NCBI RefSeq assembly: GCF_030413175.1
Contig: NZ_CP129212.1
Coordinates: 4,588,001-4,652,000, forward strand
DNA: 64,000 nucleotides
Direction of reading: 5' to 3'
Source: Bradyrhizobium roseum
Lineage (GTDB): Bacteria; Pseudomonadota; Alphaproteobacteria; Rhizobiales; Xanthobacteraceae
Under the pieces are notes generated by a model. The model saw only the letters and a program-made list of their open reading frames with translations. It searched no databases and had not been told where the DNA came from. Within the stretch, counting starts at the first letter, position 1. Every line of letters begins with the position of its first letter. Made by a program: the position numbers and the translations under genes. This document shows positions 43,136 to 48,426 of this stretch, in pieces.

Positions 43136-44128
43136 TCACGCCGCGACCAGCGCCCTGCGATCCTCGACCTGCGCGATGGCGTCGCGCAGCACGTCGATGC
43201 CGGCGCCCGGCCTGACGCCGTTCTCCGCCAGATGGCGGCGGAAGGCGCGGGCGCCGGGCACACCGTGGAACGCGCCGACAAAATGCCGCGTCATCGAATG
43301 CAGTTTTGTCCCCCGCGCCAATTGCTCCTCGATATAGGGCACCATCGCCGCGAACACGTCCTTCATCGTGTTGTGGGGCGCCGCCTCGCCGAACAGTTCC
43401 GGATCGACGTCGAGCAGTCGCCACGGCTCCTGATAGGCCACCCGCCCCAGCATCACGCCGTCGACATGGTCCAGATGCCGCTTCGCCTCCGCAACGCCGG
43501 CGATGCCGCCATTGATGATAACGGGGACGTCCGGCAGCGCGGCCTTGAGCCGGTAGACCCTGTCGTAATCGAGCGGCGGGATGTCGCGGTTTTCCTTCGG
43601 CGACAAACCATTCAGCCACGCCTTGCGCGCGTGCACGATCAGCGCGTCCGCACCGGCTGCGATCACGCTGCGCGCCAGCACGTCGAGAGCGACTTCCGGA
43701 TCCTGGTCGTCGATCCCGATCCGGCATTTGACCGTGACCGGAATCGTCACCGCACGCTTCATCGCGGCCACGCCCTCCGCCACCAGCGCCGGCTCCGCCA
43801 TCAGGCAGGCGCCGAAGCGGCCGTCCTTTACGCGATCGGACGGACAGCCGACATTGAGATTGATTTCGTCATAGCCAAAATCCTCGCCGATCGTCGCAGC
43901 GGCCGCGAGATCGCCCGGGTCCGAGCCGCCGAGCTGCAGCGCCACCGGATGCTCGCTTGCATCGAAGCCAAGCAGCCGTCTGCGGTCGCCATGAATAACA
44001 GCGCCGGTCGTCAGCATCTCCGTGTAAAGCCGCGCGCGCCTGGACATCAGACGGTGGAACACCCGGCAATGCCGGTCGGTCCAATCCATCATAGGCGCCA
44101 CAGAAAATAGATAGTCCTGATATTTCAA
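43136..44128 (-). CDS. dusA: tRNA-dihydrouridine synthase A
   Basis: 330 residues. FMN TIM barrel: FSVAPMMDWTDRHCRVFHR, LQLGGSDPGDLA, NLNVGCPSDRVKDGRFGACLM (catalytic Cys), VTVKCRIGIDDQD, IVHARKAWLNGLSPKENR and GGIAGVAEAKRHLDHVDGVM. Reduces uridines 20/20a in the tRNA D-loop. The best start is TTG at 44126-44128; the next ATG (44092) would remove the conserved FSVAP strand. Its 5' end is an integration site (see 44080-44128), so the first 16 codons and promoter were probably supplied by the inserted element. Confidence 0.95.
   Translation of the reverse strand: MKYQDYLFSVAPMMDWTDRHCRVFHRLMSRRARLYTEMLTTGAVIHGDRRRLLGFDASEHPVALQLGGSDPGDLAAAATIGEDFGYDEINLNVGCPSDRVKDGRFGACLMAEPALVAEGVAAMKRAVTIPVTVKCRIGIDDQDPEVALDVLARSVIAAGADALIVHARKAWLNGLSPKENRDIPPLDYDRVYRLKAALPDVPVIINGGIAGVAEAKRHLDHVDGVMLGRVAYQEPWRLLDVDPELFGEAAPHNTMKDVFAAMVPYIEEQLARGTKLHSMTRHFVGAFHGVPGARAFRRHLAENGVRPGAGIDVLRDAIAQVEDRRALVAA
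44080..44128. other. Attachment site in the 5' end of functional dusA
   Basis: Core TCCAATCCATCAT (44080-44092) encodes the MMDW segment of DusA on the minus strand and is repeated exactly at 48031-48043. The next 35 or so bases up to the TTG start also match the distal copy at about 26 of 35 positions with one gap. Recombination in the core would swap the sequence upstream of codon 13. Confidence 0.8.
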
Positions 44129-44163
44129 CTAGTTGTCCTATATTTTTAACGGACTAGAACGCG

Positions 44164-44276
44164 AACACGGTGCACACGTGTGCACTCAAACTGGTCCAAA
44201 TTGCACACGTTTGTAACTCATTTGATCTCCCGATGCACACGTAGCGCACACGAATTAGAAACGGAGTGCACACGCC
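44164..44276. repeat. Cluster of GCACACG-type repeats (candidate integrase arm sites)
   Basis: Four near copies lie between the dusA start and the integrase: the palindrome GTGCACACGTGTGCAC, TTGCACACGTTTG, ATGCACACGTAGCGCACACG and AGTGCACACGCC. A similar block, CTGCACACGTCGTGTACACG, lies inside the other end (about 47970-47990) after a shared ATCTCCCG. Position next to att cores on both sides fits arm-type binding sites of a tyrosine recombinase. This is inference from position and repetition. Confidence 0.55.
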
Positions 44277-45050
44277 ATGCCGACCTTCACGAGGCTATAG
44301 TCTGGTAGGTGGCGCGTTCAGGTCAGGAGGAAAAGTGAGTACGTCGCGAACACCTTCGTCCGACGACGTGACGCTGAGGAATGGGCACTCGCTGTCGAGC
44401 GCTCAATCGATCAGGGTATCCCGATCCGGCGCTCCAAATCTCAGGAACAGCCGCGCATTGTCTCCGACTTAATCGCTCTACATCTCGACGATCTTGCTCA
44501 AGTTGGCAAGCCGGTTCGGCGCTCAAAATCGATGGTCCTTAGATCGCTCAAGACTTCTCTCGGGCGCGTGAATCTCAAAGATATCACTCGCGAGAAACTG
44601 ATCGAGTTTGGAAGGAAGCGAGTTGCACAAGGCGCGGGACCAGCAACTCTCGCGATTGATTTCTCTTTCATACCAACCATCCTGACGCACGCTGCGGCGG
44701 TCCACGGCATCGACGTTTCTATCGAGAGCGTTCAGTTGGCCCGAGCTGCGCTTAGACACCTCGACCTCGTGGGAAAATCTAACGAGCGCGATCGCCGTCC
44801 CACTCAGGACGAACTGAATCGGTTAATCGAATATGCCTAATGTAATCCCTTACAATTTATACCGCTCGGCAGAATTATTCGCTTCGCAATGCGCCAGGCT
44901 GAGATCTGCCGGATAGAATGGTCTGATGTTGATCTGAAGAAGCGGATGGTCACTATCCGCGATAGCAAAGACCCGCAAAGAAATGACGGAAAGATCGTCG
45001 CCATTCTCAATTCCACGGGCTACGACGTAAAGATTGGCGGATTCTACGGC
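44277..45050 (+). pseudogene. Broken phage-type tyrosine integrase
   Basis: The frame starts MPTFTRL at 44277, hits TAG at codon 8 (44298-44300), continues RWRVQVRRKSEYVANTFVRR (N-terminal arm-binding domain) through a SAM-like core-binding domain (KDITREKLIEFGRKRVAQGA), hits TAA at 44838-44840, and resumes in the same frame with PLGRIIRFAMRQAEICRIEW, which holds the first catalytic Arg. After RDSKDPQRNDGK the similarity fades, so box II (HxxR) and the Tyr are missing. It is adjacent to and divergent from dusA, as expected for a dusA-specific integrase. Confidence 0.85.
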
Positions 45051-45440
45051 GCTATGCGAATCTCAAACCCGACGATTTGCACAAAATGCAAACTGCTGCA
45101 CAGCCTTCGATGGAGCAATTCTTGGCAACGTTGGTTGCGAGCTAAGCCACTTCGAGCTGCTGCCGGTTGATGGACACCAAGGAGGCGTGAACGCGTGGGT
45201 GGCAGTCAACGCGATGCACGCGAGCACCATAGAAACCGCGAAGCCATCGACCACCAACTGAGGCTGCGCCGTGCTGCCTCGTGCTGGTGATTTCGGCCGA
45301 TATAGGCAACGTGTCCCACGGCATACTGGCACCTCTCTCAGAGATTGTGAAGTGGATCATGCACATCCGGCCTCGCCCTTTCGTAACCTCCCTGCGCGCC
45401 CTCCACCGCGAGGGCGATGGCGATCAAGGAGAATTTTGTC
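45051..45440. other. Gene-less stretch inside the element
   Basis: About 390 bp between the integrase remnant and the exported-protein gene. Overlapping frames occur on both strands (for example 45063-45332 leftward, with a hydrophobic run near LVVDGFAVSMVLACIALTAT), but none has a ribosome site or recognisable family. Probably scrambled remains. Confidence 0.35.
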
Positions 45441-45848
45441 ATGACCAAGTCCTCATTTCCCGTTGCAATCGGCCTTTCTGCCGCACTGCTGTGGTCCTCG
45501 GCAGCTCAAGCCGCCAACGAAAAACACTATGGGGTTGTTTGCTTGCGGAACGACACCAAGGCCAACATCACCTATTCGCGCAAGGTCGGCGACGGCGGCT
45601 GGGAAACCCGCTTCCTGGCGCCGGGCGACCGATGGAAGATCTCGCACCGCTATGACAGATCGAACGAAAACAGGTCGCCGACGGTCCGCGTCAGATACGA
45701 TGCCGACGCCAGTGGCCGCAGGTTCTCGCAAAGCAGGGAACTCGATCGGCTGGCTGCCGTCGGCGATACCTGCCAAGAAGCTAGGATCTATGCCTTCCAA
45801 TACGAGCCGCGCAACCGGAGCTTCATTACGCTTGAACGCGTGCAATAG
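45441..45848 (+). CDS. Small exported protein of unknown function
   Basis: 135 residues from ATG 45441, preceded by AAGGAGAA. Signal peptide ending AAQAA (about residue 23). Mature chain NEKHYGVVCLRNDTKANITY, GWETRFLAPGDRWKISHRYD, then VRVRYDADASGRRFSQSREL and a second Cys in GDTCQEARIY; beta-rich and basic. It looks intact, unlike most of the element. No family recognised. Confidence 0.7.
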   Translation: MTKSSFPVAIGLSAALLWSSAAQAANEKHYGVVCLRNDTKANITYSRKVGDGGWETRFLAPGDRWKISHRYDRSNENRSPTVRVRYDADASGRRFSQSRELDRLAAVGDTCQEARIYAFQYEPRNRSFITLERVQ

Positions 45849-46105
45849 CTGACGCCGAGCCGCGATCCAGGCGCGCTGCGTCGCTAAGGCGGATTTTTGC
45901 CGAAGCAACCTACGGCGTTGGCGCGCTTGGTATTCCAGCGAGATTTCCGCAGGAGTTCCGGCAACATTCTTTTAATGAGTGTGCTAAAGTTCACAACATT
46001 TTTGATTGCTTACAAGATCTGTTGGCGGGGCAAGAGAAGAGCCCGCCCTGCGCTCTGGCAGCCGATCCGTTGGAACATTTTTCGGAAACCTTGCTTGTAA
46101 GAGAC
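45849..46105. other. Gene-less stretch inside the element
   Basis: No credible gene. AT-richer than the surroundings around 45965-46020. It separates the exported-protein gene from the serine-recombinase remnant. Confidence 0.35.
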
Positions 46106-46336
46106 CTAACGCGCCTTACGCCGCCACTTTGATGCCAGCAGGTTGAAGAGCCCCCAAATTGTCCCGACGTGGCAATCATATTCGCGGGCCAATTCGGGAA
46201 TGGTGCCCTTGGCGTACAGCTCCGCAACCTTGCGCTTCTGGCCTTCATCAAGCCGCTCCCTGCGGCCGAATTTCTAGCCGAGCTTGCGCGCGCGCTCAAT
46301 TCCGGCATCGGTTCGCCCCCGGATCAGCGCTGCGGC
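46106..46336 (-). pseudogene. C-terminal remnant of a serine recombinase (resolvase/invertase)
   Basis: Leftward translation gives ALIRGRTDAGIERARKLG, an in-frame TAG, then KFGRRERLDEGQKRKVAELY, AKGTIPELAREYDCHVGTIW and a basic tail to the stop at 46106-46108. This is the helix-turn-helix DNA-binding end of a Hin/resolvase-type protein; the catalytic serine domain is absent. Confidence 0.8.
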
Positions 46337-46337
46337 C

Positions 46338-46640
46338 GTCGAGAACCAGGTTGGGCTTGTCCGGGAGCGCTTCTTCACGCCACGGCTGCGGTTCAAAAGC
46401 CTCGACGAACTGAACGCATGGCTGTTGGACAAGTGCATCGCCTACGCCAAGCTGCCGCTCACCAAGGACCTTGAGGACTTCCAGTTCGAGGGAACACCCA
46501 TCAACCAGACGCTGGTTAATGACCTCGCCGGCGGCTTCATACCCCAGCAACGCAACGCCGTGCTGGTCGGCGGCACCGTTACCGGCAAGACCCGCTATTG
46601 CCATCGCCAGAAAAATGCCGACGACCGGAATGATCGACCT
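46338..46640 (+). mobile_element. IS21-family remnant: istA end fused to istB start
   Basis: The frame begins with an IstA C-terminal segment (VENQVGLVRERFFTPRLRFK, then LDELNAWLLDKCIAYAK) and passes, without the rest of IstA, into an IstB N-terminal segment (LPLTKDLEDFQFEGTPINQT, NDLAGGFIPQQRNAVLVGG). The Walker A that should read GGTGTGKTH is changed to GGTVTGKTR and is followed by a frame change. An internal deletion joined the two genes. No terminal inverted repeats were found. Confidence 0.8.
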
Positions 46641-46834
46641 TGACGACAGGATCGTCTTAAAATCGAAGACCCTGAAGCAATAAATCGACAAGGCCGTGCT
46701 GCCCGGTTTTCGCGCAAGCGGCGCCGGTTTCCGATGGTGATCAAGGCAGGCAATTCGTCGTATTGCCCACACCTAGGGCGTATCGTAGCTGCGGCAACGA
46801 CACCCTGCTGGCCGTCATCAAGCCTGATCTCGAT

Positions 46835-47794
46835 TCAATCAGAACCGATCGGGCTTTCGATGCCGTTGCGTGCGCGGCGAAACCAGGCCCACGTCTGCCG
46901 CGTCACTGCGATATAGCCCGGGCCCCGGTATACGATCTGATCGGCGACGATCCGGTTCAGCTTCGGCAGCGCATGAAACGGAATAGAAGGATAGGCATGG
47001 TGCTCGACATGATAGGGCATGTTCCAAGCAAACCAGCGCACGAACATGGCGGTATAGGTGGTGCGGGTATTTTGGAAGGCGCTGCGCGTGCGGTCGCAGC
47101 CGGTGTGTTCTGCAAGCAGATACGGACGCAGAAACAATTGACCGACGATCACGGGGACGACCCAGACCCACAACAGGATCCAACTATTCAGCGCGACCGA
47201 TGCCAGCAGCAGCGCAACGTAGCCGGCCAGATAGAGACGCGCTTCCCTCACGACAACGTGGCGCTTGTTTTCCGGAATCCAAGGCGACGTGGCGTTGCCG
47301 GTCAACGCATGGCGAAGCATCAGCCACGCCCGGAATGCAACCTGCCGCAAGCCGCTGTAGACGATCACCAGTTGTGCGTCCGAGGTCGGGATCGGAACCG
47401 ACAGCAGCTCCGGATCCCTCTTTGGATCCTGCGTATAGCGATGATGATCCCAGTGGAACAGGCAGTAGTATTCGTAAGGTAAGCCGACTGCGAACGAGGA
47501 GAGATGACCGAAGGCGAGATTGAGTGCGCGGCTGCGAAACGCCGTCTTGTGGGCAGTCTCGTGTACCACCATGAACAGGAACGCGACAAAGTAGCCTTGG
47601 ACGACGACCAGCGGCAACGCCCAGACGATTCCGTATCGCGACGAGATCAACCAGATCAGCGTGCCGACAACGACGATGACGCCGTAGTGGCTGGCCGCAC
47701 GGACCAGACCTTGCCAATCGGACCGCACGGACAACTCCCGTAGCATAGCCGGAGTCAGCGGCTTTTGTCCGGTGGCAGTGATCGCGTTGCTCAT
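46835..47794 (-). CDS. Fatty acid desaturase family protein
   Basis: 319 residues, intact. The three histidine boxes of membrane di-iron desaturases are present: HETAHKTAF (near residue 97), HWDHHRYTQ (near 132) and HVEHHAYP (near 265). Four or so membrane helices lie between them. Likely an acyl, sphingolipid or carotenoid-type desaturase/hydroxylase; the substrate cannot be told. RBS AAAAGAGG precedes the ATG at 47794. It is the one clearly intact metabolic cargo gene of the element. Confidence 0.9.
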   Translation of the reverse strand: MSNAITATGQKPLTPAMLRELSVRSDWQGLVRAASHYGVIVVVGTLIWLISSRYGIVWALPLVVVQGYFVAFLFMVVHETAHKTAFRSRALNLAFGHLSSFAVGLPYEYYCLFHWDHHRYTQDPKRDPELLSVPIPTSDAQLVIVYSGLRQVAFRAWLMLRHALTGNATSPWIPENKRHVVVREARLYLAGYVALLLASVALNSWILLWVWVVPVIVGQLFLRPYLLAEHTGCDRTRSAFQNTRTTYTAMFVRWFAWNMPYHVEHHAYPSIPFHALPKLNRIVADQIVYRGPGYIAVTRQTWAWFRRARNGIESPIGSD

Positions 47795-48030
47795 GATCGT
47801 AGTCGCCTCTTTTCGGGATGATCGTGCAGGTGCGGATTCTGAAATTCGTCAAGCACATGCCGACCCTAGGGAGCGACGCCGCAATTCAGAAGCAATCAAT
47901 TTCGCAAACGTTGGCCGGGATTGCGGACCTCGCGTCACTGCATTGGCCACCACAAGATGTTTATTAATCTCCCGCTGCACACGTCGTGTACACGCCGACT
48001 TCTAACCAATTGAAAAACTTGAACTCTCGC

Positions 48031-48078
48031 TCCAATCCATCATGGTGCGACGGAAAAGCGATAGTCTTGCGATTCCAA
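48031..48078. other. Distal attachment site carrying the displaced 5' end of dusA
   Basis: The core TCCAATCCATCAT (48031-48043) equals that in dusA. Read leftward from TTG 48078, the sequence encodes LESQDYRFSVAP, colinear with the functional start LKYQDYLFSVAP. One base is missing before the ATGATG, so it is out of frame. This is the expected relic of the original dusA start pushed away by insertion of the element. Confidence 0.8.
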
Positions 48079-48426
48079 TGATTTACCTTACACCCTCGAT
48101 GGGAGAAAGAAGAACGTGTGCACTCCAAACAGAACGAATTTGCACACGTTTGGAACTCTCGGTGCACGCGAAAGTGGGCGTGCGCACGGGCTATCTGATC
48201 GACCTGCACGACGAAGACATGCGCGAGGCCGGCTTCGCGCAGCCAGAGGGGGCGACAGCTGAGGCATAGCGGAATCGCGGGAAGAACGCTGTCACCGAAG
48301 CGTGAAGCCGATCATTGATCGAATTTTGATGTCTGGCCATGCGAGTATGGCTAGGATGATGCAACTTCGCCAAATAATGGGCGGTGGATCGACGACTTTG
48401 CTCCCGGGTTGACGGTGGTGGTCGCA
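48079..48426. other. Gene-less flank with GCACACG repeats beyond the distal att site
   Basis: About 350 bp without a convincing gene; a 75-codon frame at 48042-48269 lacks family resemblance. Bases 48112-48165 (ACGTGTGCACTCC, TTGCACACGTTTGG, GGTGCACGCG) repeat the order of the block at 44164-44215 inside the element. The spacing from the att core is also similar (about 70-80 bp). Confidence 0.45.

Follow-up and report, generated by a model that had tools for sequence, protein, structure and literature searches.

The tRNA-modification gene dusA of the soil bacterium Bradyrhizobium roseum lies in the window, by which we mean the whole 64-kb stretch of DNA that was analysed (4588001-4652000 of a 7.32-Mb single-contig genome), and the subject here is the mobile DNA at the 5' end of that gene. 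Positions above 64000 continue the window numbering rightward, and the search for stacked elements read 364 kb in that direction beginning at the window start; G numbers denote genomes (G000 being this one) and L numbers denote loci. A reading of the window from its letters alone, without database searches (the sequence-only reading), had proposed one integrative element of the dusA-associated integrase (DAI) class, bounded by an identical 13-bp core and with the original dusA start displaced to its far end. The core is indeed exact at 44080 and 48031, on the same strand and 3,951 bp apart start to start. Comparison with other genomes points to a different arrangement, and the window is very probably the dusA-proximal end of a stack of DAI-class integrative elements, in which element A (44080-48031) adjoins dusA and element B begins at the far core (Table 1).

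With one mismatch allowed, the core has two matches in the 64 kb, against a mean of 0.12 in 100 shuffled sequences, none of which reached two. Past the core on the side of the dusA N-terminus, 26 of 37 bases agree with a one-base offset, and on the opposite side 5 of 20 agree, which is the chance level. BLAST aligns the two core regions over 53 columns at 79%. DAI elements are bounded by two semiconserved attachment (att) repeats of 21 bp, and the likeness seen here comprises the 13 exact bases and these further matches on one side. The far copy had been described as colinear with the dusA N-terminus; it does read LESQDYRFSVAP, but with one base fewer before ATGATGG, so that its frame meets a stop at the core. 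Upstream comparison with relatives places dusA codons 1-12 in element-side DNA. The insertion lies inside the 5' end of dusA, and that end is now element sequence, which is how a DAI insertion is recognised. ARAGORN found no tRNA or tmRNA gene in the 64-kb window, so the target of a tRNA-gene integrating island is not present there.

The arms around the far core are what suggest more than one element. Because a right arm precedes this core and the left end of another element, with arm repeats and an integrase fragment, follows it, position 48031 is the joint between the right end of element A and the left end of element B. The arm repeats form a second matched pair, missed earlier, that spans 45 columns and is rich in GTGCACACG repeats. 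Positions 48027-48167 match the dusA-attL of a B. retamae locus (L206) at 84%, the next matching piece falls at the start of its integrase gene, and about 195 bases are absent before the element B fragment relative to that locus. The same joint of right arm, core, and left arm is complete at three further loci of the genus (L234, 86% over 225 columns; L225, 81% over 214; and L241, 81.5% over 200). In two (G087 and G061) of the 20 relatives whose upstream DNA was read over 20 kb, a flank resembling a dusA start comes after the right arm and core. The two integrase pieces also differ in subtype: the near one is 82% to integrase I47 and 61% to I58, and the far fragment is a poor match to I47 but agrees with I58 in 16 of 19 residues (E 7e-7). 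The far att site joins another element's left end, not the native dusA 5' end that a DAI element would have there. With the arms and integrase fragment of a second element lying behind it, the far copy does not stand as the displaced original start; it is most likely the start that dusA used before element A came, brought by the earlier element B, since a newcomer integrates between the body of dusA and whichever start is serving it at the time.

Element A itself is a 3.95-kb relic. The tyrosine integrase reported beside dusA is present, but compared with intact I47 (G010) it has a stop at codon 8, a second in-frame stop, a frameshift, and no residues 257-327, a loss of 71 residues that includes HDLRH and VTGH and leaves the window copy without a complete RHRH tetrad and tyrosine. 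In this state the integrase cannot be active, and because it is broken, circular excision of element A would be improbable. The desaturase-like gene is still open inside the otherwise decayed 4-kb element.

Table 1. Features of the dusA locus and of the array to its right, in window numbering.
Feature	Position	Strand	Remarks
dusA	43136-44128	-	open reading frame (ORF), 330 aa, TTG start at 44128; Pfam Dus 5.9e-85, residues 10-304
att core TCCAATCCATCAT	44080-44092	+	within dusA, MMDWT codons (13-17)
dusA 5' end in use, LKYQDYLFSVAP	44093-44128	-	from nearest element (A); in relatives the N-terminus class goes with the type of integrase
arm-type repeats, GTGCACACG and its inverse	44170-44279	+	between core and integrase of element A
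broken DAI-type tyrosine integrase, element A	44277-45139	+	tblastn with intact relative I47, 82% over residues 1-256
ORF, 143 aa	45417-45848	+	no Pfam or NCBIfam match
IS21-type istB fragment	46338-46643	+	Pfam IstB_IS21; near-copies, 92-99%, elsewhere in own genome (L070)
desaturase-like gene, 319 aa, open	46835-47794	-	Pfam FA_desaturase 5.1e-41; NCBIfam matches all under cut-off
right-end arm of element A (ctgcacacg...gaactctcgc)	47955-48030	+	matched to other ends
second att core TCCAATCCATCAT	48031-48043	+	joint of element A right end and element B left end
displaced earlier dusA start, LESQDYRFSVAP	48044-48078	-	one base short before core
arm repeats of element B	48114-48158	+	84% to 44176-44219; aligns with attL in other Bradyrhizobium
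integrase fragment of element B	48189-48233	+	97% over 48189-48226 to B. retamae locus L206
integrase relic	104193-104389		short, E 3e-5
outer end	114884		start LKDQDYRFCVAP; core one base changed; no right arm at left
integrase relic	203125-204117		frameshifted, N-terminus gone
TrbI, CagX, VirB8, TrbL, TrbE-like, T2SSE, and coupling-protein genes	224.9-237 kb		L074 = 224946-240620
RlxS relaxase	238.6-240.6 kb		873 bits, cut-off 850
outer end	298225		right arm; no dusA start to right
outer end	324673		right arm; core with same base changed as 114884; no dusA start to right

Intact relatives of the window-type integrase carry Pfam Phage_integrase. With the DAI phages mEp460, H66, and BcepIL02, I47 and I58 reach 177-202 bits, and with a Rhizobium phage 162 and 183 bits, respectively, compared with 86-87 for Rci, 76 and 58 for the tRNA-gene phage P22, 40 and 19 for lambda, and 28 and 20 for P2. 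These scores, far higher with the DAI phages than with the others, support placing the element A relic in the DAI class, as had been proposed. In all, 314 phage records matched, and among the 40 matches listed are mEp460, H66, and BcepIL02, which are named as DAI carriers in the main text of Farrugia 2015 (PMC4482086). A related, unannotated integrase was seen on the Mesorhizobium plasmid pMspAR10a (L252 3001-4034; two aligned pieces, 59.5% identical). Closer similarity of the integrase DNA than of the dusA body was tried as a sign of interspecies transfer and gave no general result, being true in 25 of 66 pairs, with a largest gap of 0.907 versus 0.786.

dusA was found in 97 of the 98 Bradyrhizobium genomes searched, and its upstream DNA was read in 94, the present genome included; G016, G072, and G090, whose dusA runs into a contig end and is cut or partial, and G097, which had no match, were left out. 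Three integrase queries, which would miss other integrase types, and a search of 0.5-2.3 kb of upstream DNA, detected a near-full copy (at least 300 residues) in 26 of the 94 genomes, a partial copy in 20, and none in 48. Nearly all near-full copies (25/26) keep an open frame across 85% or more of the query, and the remaining one (G073) is open and aligned to residue 308 only. Among the 46 genomes with an integrase or fragment, no class of DusA N-terminus pairs with both integrase types: QDYRF (36) and LNQ (3) occur with the I47/I58 type, and SYDF (3) and four dissimilar others occur with the I53 type, the classes having been set after viewing the sequences, some fragments being as short as 33 residues, and the counts ignoring relatedness. 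The 48 genomes without an integrase include 13 with QDYRF and one with SYDF. dusA lies within the flank in 25 of the 39 I58-type loci taken from named records; of the 14 others, ten have a core before the integrase, three of them as tandem joints. A record titled Frankia sp. RB7 (L236) holds a Bradyrhizobium-like dusA and the start of this integrase, and either its title may be wrong or its assembly mixed.

Since no empty dusA site was found among the genomes read, the ancestral flank was deduced from synteny, using genes that we take, from the look of their proteins, to be glnE, trmH, and pepN. The distance from dusA to glnE is smaller in other genera, where the two are collinear at 14-222 kb in eight of the 11 genomes searched, and in G120 and G128 dusA lies inside the 14.5-kb stretch with glnE. 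Within Bradyrhizobium, 25 of 30 genomes have the two genes collinear, 74-633 kb apart with a median of 428 kb, and five, the present genome among them, do not; the gap between them need not be all mobile DNA. Our glnE is inverted at 2.66 Mb, and the adjacent 2.67-2.72 Mb matches the glnE-side flank of dusA in G053. In 12 of 15 relatives (the exceptions being G019, G002, and G021) the trmH-like gene shares the strand of dusA and is found 1.5-2.3 Mb downstream of it; here it lies 302 kb upstream of dusA on the opposite strand. A single inversion ending somewhere between 324673 and 346135 would account for both gene positions, and the native dusA flank appears likely to have been carried about 2 Mb away by a large inversion. 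Signs of a large inversion are visible at 2.66-2.72 Mb and 4.913-4.934 Mb of G000, one end being at the outer edge of the stack. Other candidate markers were discarded: a methyl-accepting-chemotaxis-like gene was useless for synteny (10-19 matches per genome), the pepN-like gene of other genera was uninformative for the native flank (no match in 30 genomes at E 1e-150), and the gene right of 298225 (L010:16058-18466) has its close matches at least 600 kb from dusA (G053, G025, and G004).

Further to the right the array continues with three outer ends and two more integrase relics. The ends at 298225 and 324673 share the right-hand tail AAGTTTGAGC instead of a dusA start. A 22-base right-end pattern fits positions 48022, 298216, and 324664 with 0, 4, and 1 mismatches, respectively, and had no match in 10 mononucleotide shuffles or in 20 dinucleotide-Markov sequences of 364 kb; four end or start patterns in all had no match in any of the latter. 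At up to four mismatches in 1.57 Mb of own and related sequence, the 22-base pattern has nine matches: the three just given for this genome, one end each in G087, G061, and G066, two within dusA bodies (L115 and L125), and L117, probably by chance. Indels cause 48031 to escape the start pattern and 48116 the arm pattern. A core copy at G000 4723853 was rejected as an element end, being a chance match within a long ORF. The relaxase and type IV secretion relic at 224.9-240.6 kb indicates that at least one member of the stack was a conjugative element. Together with the coupling protein these are the genes expected of an integrative and conjugative element (ICE); a working integrase and defined ends are lacking, as the relic at 203125-204117 is frameshifted and the ends pair uncleanly. 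The counterpart of this conjugation stretch in G004 lies directly behind an intact integrase at dusA.

The flanks at the outer ends are not those of dusA but resemble CTAACGTGGATCAG on the left (own 114884, L218, and L224) and NNNNAAGTTTGAGC on the right (own 298225 and 324673, G066, and L240). A bare CTAACGTGGATCAG-core-NNNNAAGTTTGAGC site with at most three mismatches occurs in five of 265 Bradyrhizobium genomes (L254-L258), the reversed control pattern in none, and its left flank reads MMDWTDPR and then a stop on the dusA strand, making a short dusA mimic. At three of these bare sites the core is preceded, at a distance of 9-130 bases, by the end of a different integrase (471 aa, Arm-DNA-bind_3; L257 88-1500) or of its remnant. 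Matches to this integrase were found in 17 of 98 genomes, mostly without a core behind. Its ownership of the site was not established; among its 21 loci only L267 has an exact core within 1.5 kb behind, and the other core-linked cases, L256, L257, and L258 (the remnant), came from the pattern search. The dusA-like site may be a further place at which these elements land, or else a junction with a different family of elements.

We envisage that each element recombined at the same 13-bp core, at dusA codons 13-17, and that its left end opened with the core, followed by a replacement dusA 5' end complete with start codon, then the arm repeats, and last the integrase gene. Each arrival would have given dusA a new start while pushing the previous start and the previous element outward. 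Element B would have been present first, with its start at 48031, and element A would have come later, nearest dusA. The sequences themselves show the junctions with their arms, the broken integrases, and counterparts in other genomes; we infer this order of arrival, the making of the junctions by the integrases, and any pairing of the outer ends, and DusA is presumably still made and working. The core and the N-terminal likeness at both ends, together with a far frame that reads like a dusA start, could also be had from a single element at 44080-48031 with the native dusA start and upstream DNA running from 48044 onward. However, the arms and integrase fragment behind the far core match attL-integrase ends of other genomes, and the flank near glnE, 2 Mb off, matches the dusA-side flank of G053. 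Moreover, dusA had been expected to be contiguous with the sequence from 48079 onward in relatives lacking the element, yet no match of at least 250 bp joins the two in any of 20 relatives (20 kb upstream read), whose first genes upstream of dusA differ from one another, integrases apart. We consider a single element very unlikely, and marginally less credible still is a local duplication, in which a single arrival was followed by unequal exchange that duplicated the element's left end, the duplicate at 48031 then decaying. Such a copy would explain why both left ends have core, start, and arms in the same order, but not why their integrase pieces are of different subtypes (near I47; far I58, 97% at the DNA level to B. 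retamae), nor why a right arm stands before the far core, as a tandem joint predicts.

For the outer ends alone, it is a serious possibility, if somewhat short of probable, that a separate element occupies a dusA-like secondary site that lies at least 67 kb from dusA by chance. Position 114884 corresponds to the left half of that site and 298225 and 324673 to its right half, and the bare site is known from the five genomes above; an element from 114884 to 298225 in such a site would fit both flanks but leave 324673 over. Against this, two right halves and one left half leave at least one end unmatched, and the bare sites are 2.9 Mb from dusA in G247 or on other contigs in the remaining four genomes. 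Several observations also weigh against a stack of DAI elements as a whole. The outer ends pair uncleanly: 114884 lacks a right arm at its left, and 298225 and 324673 are followed by the shared tail described above and not by a dusA start, so some of the ends belong to sites of a different type. The window core differs by one base from those at 114884 and 324673. The integrase that moved element A cannot be the present broken copy. Half of the survey, 48 of 94 genomes, showed no integrase at dusA with the three queries, and the genomes read yielded no empty site. In a 15-row tree, used in place of a larger one with lambda, P2, and P4 whose long branches made it unreadable, the DAI-type rows fall on one side of Rci and P22 with weak support of just 69/97; a grouping with tRNA-targeting integrases, which would have spoken against the DAI assignment, did not appear. 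With these points taken into account, we retain the stack of DAI-class elements as very probable.

Islands and prophages of the DAI class, as described in the main text of Farrugia 2015 (PMC4482086), target the 5' end of dusA, range from 4,758 to 184,808 bp, and include Bradyrhizobium sp. BTAi1 among their carriers. The present locus has in common with them the target, the new dusA 5' end, the dusA-side tyrosine integrase, the att direct repeats, and the conjugative cargo of some, and differs in its broken integrase and its several stacked elements; the word tandem does not occur in that main text, which suggests accretion of further elements once. SGI1-like Vibrio elements use the same site and include one tandem pair (IEVpaBan1a and 1b), but in the text consulted they are distinguished by another integrase clade, by mobilisation through IncC plasmids, and by comprising just a pair (PMC8409611); the same paper mentions Bradyrhizobium dusA elements with predicted conjugation genes. 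The symbiosis ICEs of Bradyrhizobium are likewise large, belong to the same genus, and in some cases cause large inversions on integration, but their reported sites are tRNA genes and ybgC, and dusA does not appear in the main text (PMC9174649). A Mesorhizobium ICE survey lists dusA among the sites of ICEs without symbiosis genes and notes that same-site elements may integrate in tandem, but as available it names dusA once and describes no stack there (PMC8627217). Among the open papers listed in our literature search, mostly considered at the level of title and abstract, none gave an account of a dusA element stack in Bradyrhizobium. The class, the site, the replacement of the start, and a tandem pair at dusA in Vibrio are already known, and what is new is the depth of the stack and the second, dusA-like att site.

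In such a stack the displaced dusA starts form layers, the youngest expected nearest dusA, from which the arrival order of large elements can be read in the sequence. A second copy of a target gene's start at the outer edge of an island is also no sure sign of where native DNA begins. More tentatively, and with the balance of our judgement on the doubtful side, the native beginning of dusA may have been lost nearly genus-wide, its promoter, start codon, and first strand coming from the element that landed last and the discarded starts lying behind, while the same elements would also use the dusA-mimicking CTAACGTGGATCAG-core-NNNNAAGTTTGAGC site common to a family with an unrelated integrase. 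If this genus-wide reading is true, mobile DNA chooses the N-terminus and the expression signals of a widely conserved enzyme.

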